Source: a virus
Direction: 5' to 3' (one strand)
DNA length: 22,551 bases
Virus record (IMG/VR): IMGVR_UViG_3300011116_000850
Span: 1-22,551 of that record
Shown: piece after piece, positions 7,314 to 19,517 of the stretch
Layout of the letters: the number at the start of each line of letters is the position of its first letter
How positions within the stretch are numbered: the stretch's first letter is position 1
Program-made: the position numbers and the translations under genes
The notes under the pieces: model-generated
What the model was told of the DNA's origin: nothing
What the model saw: only the letters and a program-made list of their open reading frames with translations
Database searches by the model: none

Positions 7314-9182
7314 TTATCTTGTGTAGGGTCCATTTAAGTAACTTGAAGTTGAAGTATATTGAGTAGCTGAAGTATTTTCTCCAGATTCAATAATATCTTC
7401 TATAGTATTTACCACACTATTTGAAATATCTATTTGAAGGTATATATCTTTTAGTGCAATTATATCATTTGATTCTGGAGATGCTTCAATTTGAATAACA
7501 CCAGATTCAAGAGATGTCGAAACAATATTAATTACATCCAATATAATTTCTCCATTTATATAATCAACCTTTCCAGCATTGCTTTTTACAATTACTGGAA
7601 GATTGTCTACAAGTTTGAATAAAACAAGTTTTCCAGAAGAGGTTGAAGTTGGAGAATCCGTAATATATAAAGTTTCTGTGAATTCATTAGTCTTAAATCC
7701 AGAAGATTTAATACTATAGTTATTTGTTTTCTGATGAAATTTATTACCAAAACATAATTCATAAGTTGCAAATGTATTAAATGCTGGTTGCAAATCTCTT
7801 CTCATTTTAACTTTTGTAATATTAGATGTAATTGCTTTATTTGTATTATCAATTAGTGTATTTACTTTGCTATATTTAAATCTTCCACCAAAACTGTTTA
7901 CATCTGTAGATTTTGAATATGTAGTTAAAGTATTAATAACTTGATTGCGAAGTAAACTTGAATCTGCAGTAAATGACTTATTGTAATAAATTGTTGTGTC
8001 TATTTCCACATAAAGATATTTCAAATCAATAATTTCTGGTTTAATTCCAGCAATGCTATATTGTTTTAATTTTTTCTTAATATCATTTTTGGTGATCTGA
8101 GATAAAAAACTTCCATTTCTTGGTTTGATTGAAATGAAGACCTTTCCATATTCTGGTGGATCTAACTCATCTCCACCATATGCAGTTACTGAATCTACAT
8201 TAGTGTAAAGATAAGGAATTAATGATTTATAATCATTTGCTGTGACCGCTCTATATTGTGATGCATAAACTCTTGGGGCAAGATATTTGACAGAATCTAC
8301 TGATTCGATGTCATCTCCATTCTGAGACGACATTTCGGTGGATAGAAGAGAAATTCCAGAAGTAATATCATTTCCATTATTGTCTACAAGAGATCCAGAA
8401 AAAGTAAAATTGGATGCTCCATTTGCATTTTTTCCGTTAGTTACAATATATGAAATAGTTATAGTGCTACCGTTTTCCGGTTTTTTCCCAAGTAAATTAT
8501 CACCAAAAAGAATTTCATATTTTTCGTCGTTTATTTCCTGAATTAAAAATATTTTAGAATTCTTATCAATATTTAAAATATTATCATACAGTGAATATTT
8601 TTCGGTTGAAGTTAGAGTTACCTTTACATTAATTGTAGAAGTATCAATATCAGAGTTATTTAAAATATATCTTTGATTTGGTTGACTATAATCAATTATA
8701 AAACTTTTAGTTAGATATGATCCTTCATAGATCGATAAACTATTAAAATATGCAATACCAGAGTTGTCAACCGTAACTGTTATGTCTGAAGGAATTGAAA
8801 ATATATAATTGCCCGATTGAACAGCACCTAAAGCAACAATTCCTGCATTAAGTGTTACTGTTCTTGAATTTAAATTTCCAGTATCTACTGCAAACGAAAT
8901 CTTCGATTCTGCTGATCTTTTTGATCGTGGAATATAACCAATATTTCTTACAAGAGAAACAACATTTTCTCTTAATGTTGCTGAATCAATGAATGATTCA
9001 TTCACCTGCATATTCGTATTATATGCAGTAATATAACTATTATAAGCTAAAATATCTATTAAAATTGAAAAGTTAGATCCCTCAAAATCGAAATCAGTAA
9101 AATTTGAATCAGATCTCAAATAATCTTTAATCTGAGATTTTAAATCGTTAAAATCTAAATTTGTAAATTGATTGAAGGACAT
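7314..9182 (-). CDS. 6: Baseplate wedge protein gp6
   Basis: This 622-residue protein is close in size to T4 gp6 (about 660 residues) and to cyanophage homologues. The N-terminus (NFTDFDFEGSNFSILIDILA, then YNSYITAYNTNMQVNESFID) is the recognisable gp6/baseplate-J-like opening. A middle segment reads APRVYASQYRAVTANDYKSL, a hallmark of the family. The protein forms the dimeric wedge subunit of the T4-type baseplate inner ring and changes conformation during sheath contraction. Its ATG overlaps the gp25 stop by one base (TAATG), and its own TAA abuts the ATG of the giant structural protein, so the three genes form one late operon. Codon use is AT-rich like that of its neighbours. I am confident of the family; the C-terminal third is less conserved and was assigned by continuity of the frame. 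Confidence 0.93.
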   Translation of the reverse strand: MSFNQFTNLDFNDLKSQIKDYLRSDSNFTDFDFEGSNFSILIDILAYNSYITAYNTNMQVNESFIDSATLRENVVSLVRNIGYIPRSKRSAESKISFAVDTGNLNSRTVTLNAGIVALGAVQSGNYIFSIPSDITVTVDNSGIAYFNSLSIYEGSYLTKSFIIDYSQPNQRYILNNSDIDTSTINVKVTLTSTEKYSLYDNILNIDKNSKIFLIQEINDEKYEILFGDNLLGKKPENGSTITISYIVTNGKNANGASNFTFSGSLVDNNGNDITSGISLLSTEMSSQNGDDIESVDSVKYLAPRVYASQYRAVTANDYKSLIPYLYTNVDSVTAYGGDELDPPEYGKVFISIKPRNGSFLSQITKNDIKKKLKQYSIAGIKPEIIDLKYLYVEIDTTIYYNKSFTADSSLLRNQVINTLTTYSKSTDVNSFGGRFKYSKVNTLIDNTNKAITSNITKVKMRRDLQPAFNTFATYELCFGNKFHQKTNNYSIKSSGFKTNEFTETLYITDSPTSTSSGKLVLFKLVDNLPVIVKSNAGKVDYINGEIILDVINIVSTSLESGVIQIEASPESNDIIALKDIYLQIDISNSVVNTIEDIIESGENTSATQYTSTSSYLNGPYTR

Positions 9183-9583
9183 TATGCTCTTGTTGGTTGT
9201 AAAATAAATTCTATATTTTGTGTTGGAAATGGTAAACCAACAATATCATAGGATATACTAATATTTAAATCATTTGTATCTACTGGTTCATCAACATCAA
9301 CACTTCTTAATTTAATTCTAGGTTCAAAATTATTCAGTAATGATTTGATTTCTTCTTGAAGAAATGAACCCATGCCCGTGTTTTGCAATTCAAAAATCGA
9401 ATCTTCTATTGATGTTCCTAATAAATTATTAAAAAATCTCTCACCAATACGAGTTCTTACAAGATTCATTACAGACATTTTAATAGAATCCTCATTTCTG
9501 AGAACAGTCAGATCATTTGTAACTGGATGCCTCGTAAAAGACAAACTGATGTCCTTGAAACTACGAGAAATTGTTACTGCCAT
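9182..9583 (-). CDS. 25: Baseplate wedge protein gp25 (GPW/gp25 family)
   Basis: The 133-residue product is practically the length of T4 gp25 (132). It carries the family signatures: a segment around residues 41-59 (LVRTRIGERFFNNLLGTSI) and the conserved EPR core at residues 87-89 (NNFEPRIKL), followed by the beta-rich C-terminus. In T4-like phages gp25 is a wedge component that nucleates sheath assembly; the EPR motif sits in the lysozyme-like fold shared with type VI secretion TssE. The start is the ATG giving MAVTISRSFK. Upstream there is only an A/G-rich stretch (AAAGAGAAAAAAATGA), so the ribosome site is weak. It is the first gene of the gp25-gp6-structural-protein run and overlaps gp6 by one base. 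Confidence 0.94.
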   Translation of the reverse strand: MAVTISRSFKDISLSFTRHPVTNDLTVLRNEDSIKMSVMNLVRTRIGERFFNNLLGTSIEDSIFELQNTGMGSFLQEEIKSLLNNFEPRIKLRSVDVDEPVDTNDLNISISYDIVGLPFPTQNIEFILQPTRA

Positions 9584-11937: not shown

Positions 11938-11974
11938 TTTTTTCTTGTTTTTTGTCTTCAAAAAATATATATGT

Positions 11975-12082
11975 CTAATGGATTTTTAAAATACTCACAG
12001 TCTCTCTCAAACATACCCATACATAAAAACACTCATCCCTTAAAGTAATTGTGCATCTCTCATATAATGACCTTTTTGACAT
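11975..12082 (-). CDS. Possible 35-aa ORF, perhaps frameshifted
   Basis: A GAGG ribosome site lies about 8 bases before an ATG giving MSKRSLYERCTITLRDECFY, ending after 35 codons. Its C-terminal part overlaps an 18-residue ATG-initiated frame (MFERDCEYFKNPLDIYIF) that also looks protein-like. This hints that the gene may be a frameshifted remnant, or that one of the two readings is accidental. Low confidence; the good ribosome site is the main support. Confidence 0.35.
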   Translation of the reverse strand: MSKRSLYERCTITLRDECFYVWVCLRETVSILKIH

Positions 12083-12252
12083 ATTTTTTTCCTCGGAAAT
12101 TTTTTTATATAACAGGTAAACCCCTCAACGATTTCAAATGGACTCGTAATCACTCACTCGTTTTTGGTCCGTTGTAGGTTAGGGTAGTTTGCCTTTTTTA
12201 TATCGGGGCATCGGTTTATAATAACAAACAAACAACGTTGAATATAACTGTC

Positions 12253-12269
12253 AAACAGTGCTGTATAAT
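12253..12269 (+). promoter_or_regulatory. ACAGTGCTGT element with TATAAT, left copy
   Basis: AAACAGTGCTGT at 12253-12264 is repeated exactly at 12823-12834, and both copies run into a TATAAT (here 12264-12269, overlapping by one base). The right copy belongs to a perfect sigma70-type promoter. The left copy has no good -35 at 17 bp. ACAG-TG-CTGT is itself a small inverted repeat and may be a regulator site placed on the promoter spacer. Confidence 0.35.
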
Positions 12270-12329
12270 AATATACACGAACAACAAAATGTTGTTTATT
12301 GTACTAAACTATTTGATATTATTAGAAAC

Positions 12330-12373
12330 TATACCCAGGGTATATAAAATAACTATACCGGGGGTATTATAAT
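12330..12373 (+). promoter_or_regulatory. Two operator-like palindromes with a TATAAT
   Basis: TATACCC-A-GGGTATA (12330-12344) is a perfect 7-bp inverted repeat. TATACC-GGG-GGTAT (12354-12367) is a second, similar one centred about 24 bp away. The second runs directly into TATAAT (12368-12373). Tandem palindromes over a -10 box look like a repressor operator, but no strong -35 hexamer is present, so promoter activity is uncertain. Confidence 0.4.
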
Positions 12374-12390
12374 TAGAAGAGCACGAAGAG

Positions 12391-12559
12391 TTTTCCACAG
12401 GACGATAGGGGTTTTCCACAGGTATTCCACAGGTTTATGAGGTTTTCCACAGGTTTATCAGAGTTTTCCACAGGACGACGAAGAGTTTTCCACAGGTTTA
12501 TGAGGTTTTCCACAGGACGACGAAGAGTTTTCCACAGGTTTATCAGAGTTTTCCACAGG
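12391..12559 (+). repeat. Phased array of nine DnaA-box-like iterons (TTTTCCACAGG)
   Basis: Boxes start at 12391, 12412, 12423, 12443, 12464, 12486, 12506, 12528 and 12549; eight are exact TTTTCCACAGG and the third is TATTCCACAGG. Intervals are 21, 11, 20, 21, 22, 20, 22 and 21 bp. That is 158 bp over 15 helical turns, or 10.5 bp per turn, so all boxes face the same side of the helix. Spacers alternate between ACGACGAAGAG and TTTATGAGG or TTTATCAGAG types. TTTTCCACA matches the DnaA-box consensus known from cyanobacteria (E. coli uses TTATCCACA). This fits cooperative loading of host DnaA; the functional reading is inference. Confidence 0.8.
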
Positions 12560-12561
12560 GC

Positions 12562-12587
12562 AAATCTTATAAACCCTTACAAACACT
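12562..12587 (+). repeat. 26-bp direct repeat, copy 1
   Basis: The sequence starting AAATCTTATAAACCCTT and ending AAACACT recurs at 12789-12814 with two differences (AC versus GG in the middle). The two copies bracket the distal DnaA-like boxes and the ACGAAGT repeats. Confidence 0.7.
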
Positions 12588-12602
12588 ACAATTAATTATA
12601 AA

Positions 12603-12683
12603 CCTGTGGAAAACTTTTACAACGAACAGTTCTTATACTCTATACTACCACGAACAACCTGTGGAAAACTATTTTTCCACAGG
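12603..12683. repeat. Three further DnaA-like boxes, two forming a perfect inverted repeat
   Basis: CCTGTGGAAAA (minus-strand box) occurs at 12603-12613 and 12658-12668, and TTTTCCACAGG at 12673-12683. The last two form CCTGTGGAAAA-CTAT-TTTTCCACAGG, an 11-bp perfect inverted repeat with a 4-bp centre. The change from direct to inverted orientation separates this part from the phased array and could allow bridging or hairpin formation. Confidence 0.75.
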
Positions 12684-12757
12684 ACGAAGTAGTATCATAC
12701 TCACAAATACACGAAGTTATTATCTCAGTCCACGAAGTCATTCTATCACACGAAGTC
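12684..12757 (+). repeat. Four ACGAAGT repeats
   Basis: ACGAAGT occurs at 12684, 12711, 12732 and 12750; the last three are preceded by C, giving CACGAAGT, and the last two read CACGAAGTC. Related ACGAAGAG words form the spacers of the DnaA-like array. They may be a second protein-binding iteron family. Confidence 0.45.
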
Positions 12758-12769
12758 GGGAGTTGTCAA
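12740..12769 (-). promoter_or_regulatory. Strong sigma70-type promoter reading left
   Basis: The minus strand has TTGACA (12769-12764), an 18-bp spacer and TAGAAT (12745-12740), with TGA before the -10 as in extended -10 promoters. Its -35 sits in an 11-bp inverted repeat shared with the opposing promoter at 12814-12842. It would transcribe through the box array toward the small genes at 12082-11628 and perhaps beyond. Confidence 0.55.
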
Positions 12770-12788
12770 GTGTCTCATAATGTGTTGG

Positions 12789-12814
12789 AAATCTTATAAA
12801 CCCTTGGAAACACT
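12789..12814 (+). repeat. 26-bp direct repeat, copy 2
   Basis: Second copy of the AAATCTTATAAACCCTT element at 12562-12587, with GG in place of AC in the middle. Its end overlaps the -35 of the rightward consensus promoter. Confidence 0.7.
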
Positions 12815-12842
12815 TGACAAATAAACAGTGCTGTCTTATAAT
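12814..12842 (+). promoter_or_regulatory. Perfect consensus sigma70 promoter reading right, with no sense gene downstream
   Basis: TTGACA (12814-12819), exactly 17 bp, then TATAAT (12837-12842): all 12 consensus bases at optimal spacing. The spacer holds ACAGTGCTGT. Every gene to the right is on the other strand, so a transcript would be an origin primer, a small RNA, or antisense to the genes from 13045 onward. Confidence 0.65.
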
Positions 12843-12880
12843 TAACAGGCTTAGAAGACTAAAAGAACTTATAATACTTC

Positions 12881-12934
12881 ATAATAACACACATTACTCT
12901 ATAAGATCTTATAATAACACACATTACTCTATAA
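12881..12934 (+). repeat. AT-rich 30-bp tandem repeat, possible unwinding element
   Basis: ATAATAACACACATTACTCT occurs exactly at 12881-12900 and 12911-12930, each followed by ATAA; a third partial ATAATAACACAT follows at 12931. The surrounding 12840-13040 is dominated by A/T with TTATAAT words. It could be the DNA-unwinding element of the putative origin. Confidence 0.6.
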
Positions 12935-13044
12935 TAACACATATAACATCATCATTATATCACATTATAACAATACTTAACAATTACTAACATACATTTT
13001 TAATCATATTTAATCATTACAAAATAGTAACGTATTATACAACA

Positions 13045-15155: not shown

Positions 15156-16370
15156 TTATGTAGTAACTGTCTCACCCTCAACAAAAACAGAATTCACAAG
15201 CATTTGAATCTTTTTTGCAATCTGATTACCATAACCTTGTGATATAGGAATGATAATCTTACCATATGGTTTCTTATAAAACTCAAACCGTCCGGATTGT
15301 AATTGATTGGTTTGAATCGCACTTCGATCTTCTTGTGACACTCGTATCACTCTACCAATCGTTTGAAGCATCTCAATCGTAGGAAGATTACGCAACATAA
15401 TACAATGAGTCAGTCCAGGTACATTGATACCCTCAGATAAAATTGAATAATGAAATACAATCATCTTTTGTGTGCTATTCTTACCTAGAAGTGTAAGTTG
15501 CTCAAAGAACTTTTCTCTTGTAACTTTCTTGCGATTGATATATGCACCGTGCTTGGATGTAATATGCATCACCACATAGTTCATATCAATCAATGATTGT
15601 AGAAGTGAAGTATGTGACAGTGTATCCCAGATTACTTTTGTAGAAGGAGCAGCAACCAATACCTTTGGTGCTGATTCATTCATATTATTCAGAATACTCA
15701 GAATATTCTCCGAATCCACAATCGCAGCATTTTCTTTTGTGCGAACTTCATCAAATTCATAGGTTTCTATCTGTGGTGAAAGAATAGTTCCAGCACTTAC
15801 AAGTTCCTTTGCACTAATCGAAATGATATTACTACCATACACACTACTATTGCTCATCGCAATTTTAGGAGTTGCGGTAAAGAAATAAGCAGCATTGGAT
15901 GATTCGGATGTACGAGCAACACCTACGCTATTCATCGGTTTGGTAGAATTATGTGCTTCATCAAAATATGCAACATCAATCACAATACCTGACTCATTTA
16001 CTCTTTCTAATGAGTGATAAGTAGTGAAAATCAAATGATGTTGATTAAGTGCTTTTGCTACAGCATTATATGCCGCAATCTTGTCTGATTGTGTACTACT
16101 AAAGTGATGAGTCTCTCCACTATGTACGTGAGCAATACAAATCTCTTCGCTCTTTAGATACTGCTCAAACTCATCGGAGAGTTGATTGGCAAGCAGAATA
16201 CGAGGAGCAACAACAACAATAGTTAGAGGAACATCAGACGCAGTAATTCGGTTCTTTGCATCCTGCATCATTACTATAGTTTTACCACCACCAGTAGGCA
16301 TAAACACCTTACCCTTTGAGTGTTTTGAGATCTCCCTCAAAGCACGTTGTTGATAATCAAGAAGTTGCAT
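15156..16370 (-). CDS. Superfamily 2 DEAH-type helicase
   Basis: The 404-residue protein is an SF2 ATPase. Motif Q-like DYQQRAL is at residues 5-11, Walker A MPTGGGKT at 24-31 and motif Ia VVAPRILLANQL near 53-64. DEAH is at 137-140 (motif II), TAT at 165-167 (motif III) and QTIGRVIR at 336-343 (motif VI). FHYSILSEGINVPG supplies motif V. The layout resembles the type I/III restriction-helicase (ResIII) and UvsW-like group, but it is shorter than T4 UvsW (about 500 residues), with no extra N-terminal domain and only about 60 residues after motif VI. It may remodel branched DNA or R-loops; substrate unknown. All catalytic motifs are intact. It starts at the ATG giving MQLLDYQQRA, without a clear ribosome site, just after the hairpin at 16407-16430. 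Confidence 0.9.
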   Translation of the reverse strand: MQLLDYQQRALREISKHSKGKVFMPTGGGKTIVMMQDAKNRITASDVPLTIVVVAPRILLANQLSDEFEQYLKSEEICIAHVHSGETHHFSSTQSDKIAAYNAVAKALNQHHLIFTTYHSLERVNESGIVIDVAYFDEAHNSTKPMNSVGVARTSESSNAAYFFTATPKIAMSNSSVYGSNIISISAKELVSAGTILSPQIETYEFDEVRTKENAAIVDSENILSILNNMNESAPKVLVAAPSTKVIWDTLSHTSLLQSLIDMNYVVMHITSKHGAYINRKKVTREKFFEQLTLLGKNSTQKMIVFHYSILSEGINVPGLTHCIMLRNLPTIEMLQTIGRVIRVSQEDRSAIQTNQLQSGRFEFYKKPYGKIIIPISQGYGNQIAKKIQMLVNSVFVEGETVTT

Positions 16371-19027: not shown

Positions 19028-19284
19028 TTTACACTCTCCCCAATGTAAACATCAATATAATCAGCAATACGATCAAATGCCTTCTCTAAAATGTAATCAG
19101 TCTCATCCAAATCGTTGAGAACTTTGTTAGTGATTTCCTCATCAAAATAGACCTGCTCACCAATATCATTCTCCACAAATACATCCTCCTTAGTGAAGAT
19201 GAGAGCAGCACAAGATGCTTCTGCTCCTTGTTGCTCAATCAGTTTTTCTATACTCTGTTTGAGTTGTTGAAGTGTGCGATTCAT
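19024..19284 (-). CDS. Small acidic protein, unknown function (86 aa)
   Basis: MNRTLQQLKQSIEKLIEQQG begins a helical N-terminus. A more beta-rich middle (AALIFTKEDVFVENDIGEQV) and an acidic helical end (LNDLDETDYILEKAFDRIAD) follow. It has no membrane segment and no family I can name. It overlaps the preceding stop through ATGA and is followed by a GTGA overlap, so it sits within a coupled chain of six genes. Confidence 0.75.
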   Translation of the reverse strand: MNRTLQQLKQSIEKLIEQQGAEASCAALIFTKEDVFVENDIGEQVYFDEEITNKVLNDLDETDYILEKAFDRIADYIDVYIGESVK

Positions 19285-19517
19285 TGATATTGAGGGAGAA
19301 TAGAAAAAGAACCACAGAACCTTTGAACCCAGTGTAAAGTATCAACATACCCACGAGGATTAGACATCACCATACTTGTATTCTTGCGAGGATTGTGAGC
19401 AACAGCAAAGTACCTATAAACATCAGGTGCTTCTTCAATCTCTTGAATCCACATTTGATTTACATTACCATCCTGCCAATCCCAACGAGAAGTAGTGTAG
19501 GAATAGATTTCGTTCAT
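19281..19517 (-). CDS. Small protein, unknown function (78 aa)
   Basis: MNEIYSYTTSRWDWQDGNVN opens a protein with W-rich and beta-like segments (WIQEIEEAPDVYRYFAVAHN, WVQRFCGSFSILPQYQ). I use the ATG at 19517, one base after the stop of the preceding gene; an upstream extension would enter that gene's frame. Its stop overlaps the next ATG. Trp and Tyr content suggests a small structured domain. No motif identified. Confidence 0.72.
   Translation of the reverse strand: MNEIYSYTTSRWDWQDGNVNQMWIQEIEEAPDVYRYFAVAHNPRKNTSMVMSNPRGYVDTLHWVQRFCGSFSILPQYQ

Follow-up and report, generated by a model that had tools for sequence, protein, structure and literature searches.

On its minus strand, the window, which is the whole 22.5-kb fragment of viral DNA that was analysed, encodes gp6, gp25, SpeD, a glycosyltransferase (GT), and UvsW. 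GT is a phrog_1574 protein that is annotated as a glycosyltransferase in relatives. The matches to gp6, gp25, UvsW, and SpeD bear out the T4-like assignment made in a first-pass annotation of this DNA, and by its gene content the window is a fragment of a T4-like cyanophage (Kyanoviridae). A noncoding gap of 1.08 kb (11962-13044) contains a dense array of short repeats as well as the palindromes, promoters, and AT-rich tract listed in Table 1.

The repeats are copies of the 11-mer TTTTCCACAGG. Eleven exact copies and one variant lie within 293 bp, and the number of exact copies expected in the 22.5-kb record is 0.007. The exact boxes start at 12391, 12412, 12443, 12464, 12486, 12506, 12528, 12549, and 12673 on the plus strand and at 12603 and 12658 on the minus strand, while TATTCCACAGG at 12423 is a box with one mismatch. 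No further exact TTTTCCACAGG is present outside the array in the whole record. Both coordinates and counts agree with the first-pass annotation, which had reported eleven exact boxes and one single-base variant in 300 bp. It had also described the first nine boxes as helically phased in one orientation over 158 bp, and this holds: the successive start distances are 21, 11, 20, 21, 22, 20, 22, and 21 bp (158 bp in total), and at a period of 10.5 bp the resultant length is 0.966. A recent 42-bp tandem duplication (repeat family D2) accounts for part of this phasing. The preference for 21 or 22 bp persists in non-identical pairs of boxes across phages and in cyanobacterial genomes. Three further sites follow the phased boxes, and two of them form an inverted repeat (12658 minus and 12673 plus), again as first described. 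In five near relatives the boxes of this inverted pair are invariant and its loop is variable, and similar sequences occur in Syn1, S-RIM44, and ACG-2014e. The pair was considered as a terminator and rejected, with one terminator-like match against 0.6 expected by chance. Rfam likewise gave no known RNA element, only a sub-threshold match to DapZ (E 0.057). Three copies of CACGAAGT at 12710-12758 are about 21 bp apart and in register with the box spacing.

Table 1. Features of the array, its surroundings, and the flanking landmark genes (window coordinates).
Feature	Position	Strand	Remarks
gp25 baseplate wedge	9182..9583	-	left-hand flanking landmark
Two operator-like palindromes (TATACCC-A-GGGTAT; TATACCGGGGGTAT)	12327..12367	.	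repeat D11; kept in five relatives; beside array
Direct array, nine boxes (eight exact TTTTCCACAGG, TATTCCACAGG at 12423)	12391..12559	+	start spacing 20-22 or 11 bp
Core, convergent pair TTTTCCACAGG-N43-CCTGTGGAAAA	12549..12613	+	N43-44 in 60 other viral contigs
Conserved non-box spacer, consensus near GCAATTCTTATAAACCCTTGCAAACACTACAAATCATTATAA	12560..12602	+	column counts, 54 cores
Inverted box pair CCTGTGGAAAA-CTAT-TTTTCCACAGG	12658..12683	.	perfect 11-bp inverted repeat, 4-bp loop
Leftward sigma70-like promoter TTGACA-N18-TAGAAT	12740..12769	-	points through array to GT, speD, gp25
Second copy of core spacer element, without boxes (AAATCTTATAAACCCTTGGAAACACT)	12789..12814	+	repeat D6; kept in five relatives
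Rightward promoter TTGACA-N17-TATAAT	12814..12842	+	12/12 match; into AT-rich tract, against neighbouring genes
Putative DNA-unwinding element, AT-rich	12850..13040	.	GC 21%
UvsW-like helicase	15156..16370	-	right-hand flanking landmark

The core of the array is a pair of convergent boxes that is found with its spacer in other viruses. Among the near relatives of the window the number of boxes varies and the core is constant. The spacer is conserved in most of the 60 other contigs that have the core, and a 56-bp start-to-start peak is present also in contigs selected without that criterion (13 distinct pairs). The core-bearing contigs have uvsW on one side and GT or gp25 on the other; where the orientation of the core is clear, GT/gp25 lie to its left on the minus strand, with one exception. 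The host loci sampled have no convergent pairs at distances of 56, 77-79, or 23 bp, and by this comparison the convergent core and its spacer are phage-specific. In one contig (L132:6520-6640) all five boxes are TTCTCCACA, while the 56/21/11/11 spacing is the same and the core spacer is recognisable. That the boxes have all switched alike is as expected if a single trans-acting factor reads them all. Matching of this variant to a host is unsupported (such pairs occur in only five of 390 cyanobacteria). Cores made of TTATCCACAGG in 20 viral contigs were rejected as the same element; homologues of the window proteins are absent nearby, and these are other phages. Clusters of TTATCCACA with a 43/44-bp convergent pair were seen in 20 viral contigs without window-protein homologues (L450-L469), which are other phages whose DnaA boxes are of the E. 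coli type.

Comparison with other genomes indicates that the array is no local oddity and recurs in related viruses. Close tandem boxes are found in 119 viral contigs, 52 of which have homologues of gp25, gp6, GT, UvsW, tail, or SpeD proteins and 69 a homologue of any window protein. Tandem boxes alone are unspecific, because the remaining contigs belong to other viruses. A second sample was chosen by GT alone and comprises 36 loci that have 3 kb or more of upstream sequence. A cluster lies upstream of GT in eight of them (four within 3 kb, three farther away, and L132 with its variant box), and the density of boxes is well above that of control 9-mers. The first-pass annotation had proposed a search of other cyanomyoviruses at the same locus, and clusters do turn up in roughly half of the isolate genomes examined, at that locus wherever both flanking genes were located. 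Clustering exceeds chance in ten of 18 isolate genomes (p from <5e-5 to 0.007, assuming uniform placement, and the related genomes are not independent). The clusters are significant in S-PM2, S-CREM1, S-WAM1, S-SZBM1, DSL-LC03, Syn1, S-RIM44, and S-RIM8 and weaker in Syn9 and DSL-LC02. They lie between uvsW and gp25 in all eight clustered isolates in which both genes were located. Several isolates have just two or three boxes, S-SKS1 has TTTT/TTAT/TTAT boxes in 21-bp steps, and seven of the 18 genomes have no cluster. The element is not universal in the Kyanoviridae, because about half of the examined isolates are without a significant cluster.

Other arrangements were seen during these comparisons. 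The three boxes of S-PM2 are in the stretch annotated as tRNA-Asn and tRNA-Leu (L386:3178-3334, which is S-PM2 19177-19333), and a contig of 284,050 bp (L035) has two separate TTTTCCACA clusters, at 29.3 kb and 239.1 kb. Phages without DnaA boxes (L145, L192, L209, L160, L162, L172, L189, and L200) have other repeats upstream of GT, possibly alternative iterons; these are 22-bp and 25-bp tandem repeats and TCTCGACGAG palindromes.

The boxes match those of the cyanobacterial replication initiator. The 9-mer TTTTCCACA is the cyanobacterial DnaA box, and domain IV of Cyanothece DnaA binds paired boxes cooperatively in vitro, as seen in EMSA and footprints (PMC4674748). That report and the genome comparison bear out the earlier identification of the box as the cyanobacterial consensus. 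Tandem TTTTCCACA at 20-22 bp is found in 142 of 194 cyanobacterial genomes, and the reversed control in none. It is present in only one of 14 cyanobacterial genomes of up to 2.2 Mb, and a genome of 2.4 Mb has a ten-box cluster adjoining dnaN. A DnaA encoded by the phage was rejected: no DnaA domain IV is found in the window or in ten isolates by a search that detects it in hosts. This result also speaks against the idea that the boxes are sites for a protein of the phage itself and have come to look like DnaA boxes by convergence. L132, which has its variant box throughout, would fit that idea, but the 9-mer, the flanking bases, and the 21/22-bp spacing are identical with those of host oriC, and such convergence is very improbable.

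The promoters and the AT-rich tract lie to the right of the boxes. The leftward promoter has 11-12 of 12 positions matched in near relatives. The rightward promoter has the full sigma70 -35 and -10 hexamers, and no other site in the record matches at all 12 positions. The genes that follow to its right are encoded on the other strand. A 14-bp inverted repeat (TTGTCAAGTGTCTC / GAAACACTTGACAA, 12763-12820) links the -35 regions of these two divergent promoters. In the gap as a whole the promoter count is not above chance (8 vs 6.5), and the evidence is restricted to near-perfect matches that are conserved in position. Of 33 distinct loci, 22 have a promoter with at least 11 of 12 matches that is directed away from gp25 and lies no more than 400 bp to the right of the core; its spacer is 17 bp long in every case. 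The same test yields no promoter of this direction to the left of the core, and for the opposite direction it yields 11 to the right and 5 to the left. A nearest-neighbour stability profile places the least stable 100 bp of the record at 12930-13029 (GC 17%). Similarly, 30 of 43 core loci have, no more than 700 bp from the core, a stability minimum that ranks among the lowest 1% for that locus. The boxes of S-PM2, Syn9, S-RIM8, S-WAM1, S-CREM1, and DSL-LC03 have an AT-rich tract next to them, and the tract beside the boxes of Syn1 is weak. The window type and the Syn9 type arrange boxes, AT-rich tract, and promoters in different orders.

DnaA is also known to act as a transcription factor, and the locus could be a DnaA-responsive promoter region that starts no replication. 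DnaA on the boxes would then activate or repress the adjacent early promoters, to the left towards GT, speD, and gp25 and to the right towards uvsW. Strong sigma70-like promoters do lie 30-400 bp from the boxes in the window and its relatives, including TTGACA-N17-TATAAT-like sites downstream of the boxes in Syn9, S-WAM1, and S-SZBM1. However, the window boxes are 60-450 bp from the promoters and do not overlap them, the perfect promoter is directed against the neighbouring genes, and regulation needs neither adjacent AT-rich minima nor oriC-type spacings. This explanation is considered unlikely, though it is the strongest of the rivals.

The first-pass annotation had offered two readings of the boxes, an origin that recruits host DnaA and a decoy like datA of E. 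coli. A decoy would soak up host DnaA and halt host initiation while having no part in phage initiation. The window provides up to 12 strong sites for this, and datA, likewise a group of DnaA boxes at a distance from oriC, titrates strongly with two consensus and four one-misfit boxes (PMC5835720). The phage locus differs from datA in adding a fixed convergent 43/44-bp core, a conserved non-box spacer, and an adjacent promoter and AT-rich tract; its place and orientation between uvsW and gp25 are fixed too. None of this is required of a sink, which tells against a pure decoy. The isolates with so few boxes also count against it, and overall it is improbable. Titration may still be a consequence once the phage copy number rises, a side effect that is likely because the phage genome becomes multicopy.

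The preferred reading is that 12391-13040 is probably a T4-like cyanophage replication origin that recruits host DnaA, and that a T4-type promoter/R-loop module is probably part of it. The origin branch of the first-pass annotation gains strong comparative support from the box, its context and spacing, the fixed place, the AT-rich tracts, and the absence of a DnaA domain IV from the phages searched. That annotation had missed the wide spread of the element (S-PM2, Syn9), the T4 oriF position, and the module of promoter and AT-rich tract that flanks the boxes. In this reading, host DnaA would bind the phased boxes, which are cyanobacterial in sequence, context, and spacing, and an oriC-like DnaA complex would be built around the fixed convergent core. 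The complex would open the adjacent AT-rich tract or keep it open. The transcript from the consensus promoter, given its position, would probably prime the leading strand through an R-loop, as at T4 oriF. The T4-type helicase, primase, and polymerase of the phage would then take over, as the replisome genes of cyanomyoviruses suggest (PMC2984593). At this locus, other Kyanoviridae carry versions of the region that are reduced or rearranged. A more specific model, a hybrid origin, is put forward tentatively: host DnaA on the phage-specific array would melt or hold open the AT-rich tract, and a transcript from the counter-directed promoter would prime synthesis. As an origin signal, GC skew was rejected as uninformative; in the complete genomes of DSL-LC03 and S-CREM1 it is positive almost throughout and does not turn at the array.

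T4-type phages serve as the textbook example of replication that is independent of the host initiator. Searches of the open-access literature turned up neither a description of DnaA boxes in T4-like cyanophages nor an experimentally mapped origin for them; the only origin given in a 2010 review is a single theta origin predicted for Syn9 (PMC2984593). The conserved array of host-type DnaA boxes at the T4 oriF position would give an exact, testable origin in the laboratory models S-PM2, Syn9, and S-CREM1. It would also couple early infection to host DnaA and to the cell-cycle state, and it could bear on host range. If the hybrid model is true, a virus of the T4 family has its early replication linked to the host initiator DnaA.

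The locus shares features with cyanobacterial oriC and with the origins of T4. Like an oriC it has a cluster of host-type DnaA boxes, as compared with cyanobacteria at large, and in the window an adjacent AT-rich, easily melted tract. The 9-mer and its preferred flanks are the same, and in both, boxes on one strand are spaced at 21/22 and 12 bp and divergent boxes at 19 bp. In contrast to oriC, the phage locus has no dnaN nearby and has a promoter directed against the neighbouring genes. In the T4 record, oriF (also ori(uvsY)) at 115321 lies between uvsW (112677-114440) and gene 25 (115404-115802), and the phage array has this position too. At both loci a promoter also leads into an AT-rich tract, which is an unwinding element in T4 (PMC3016281) and a putative one here (12814-12842 on the plus strand and then 12850-13040). 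T4 oriF uses a MotA middle promoter; the promoter in the window matches the sigma70 hexamers and stands beside an array of host-type DnaA boxes. A review of T4 initiation makes no mention of DnaA (PMC3016281). The iterons of T4 oriE are likewise evenly spaced direct repeats at the origin of a T4-type phage, but they are 12-nt repeats with an ill-defined role (PMC3016281), while the repeats here are host DnaA boxes. The presence of host-type sites at the same place in many related viruses suggests that a start signal of the host has been borrowed. Overall, the best reading of these sequences is that the locus combines two known kinds of origin, the DnaA boxes of the oriC type and the promoter module of the T4 type.
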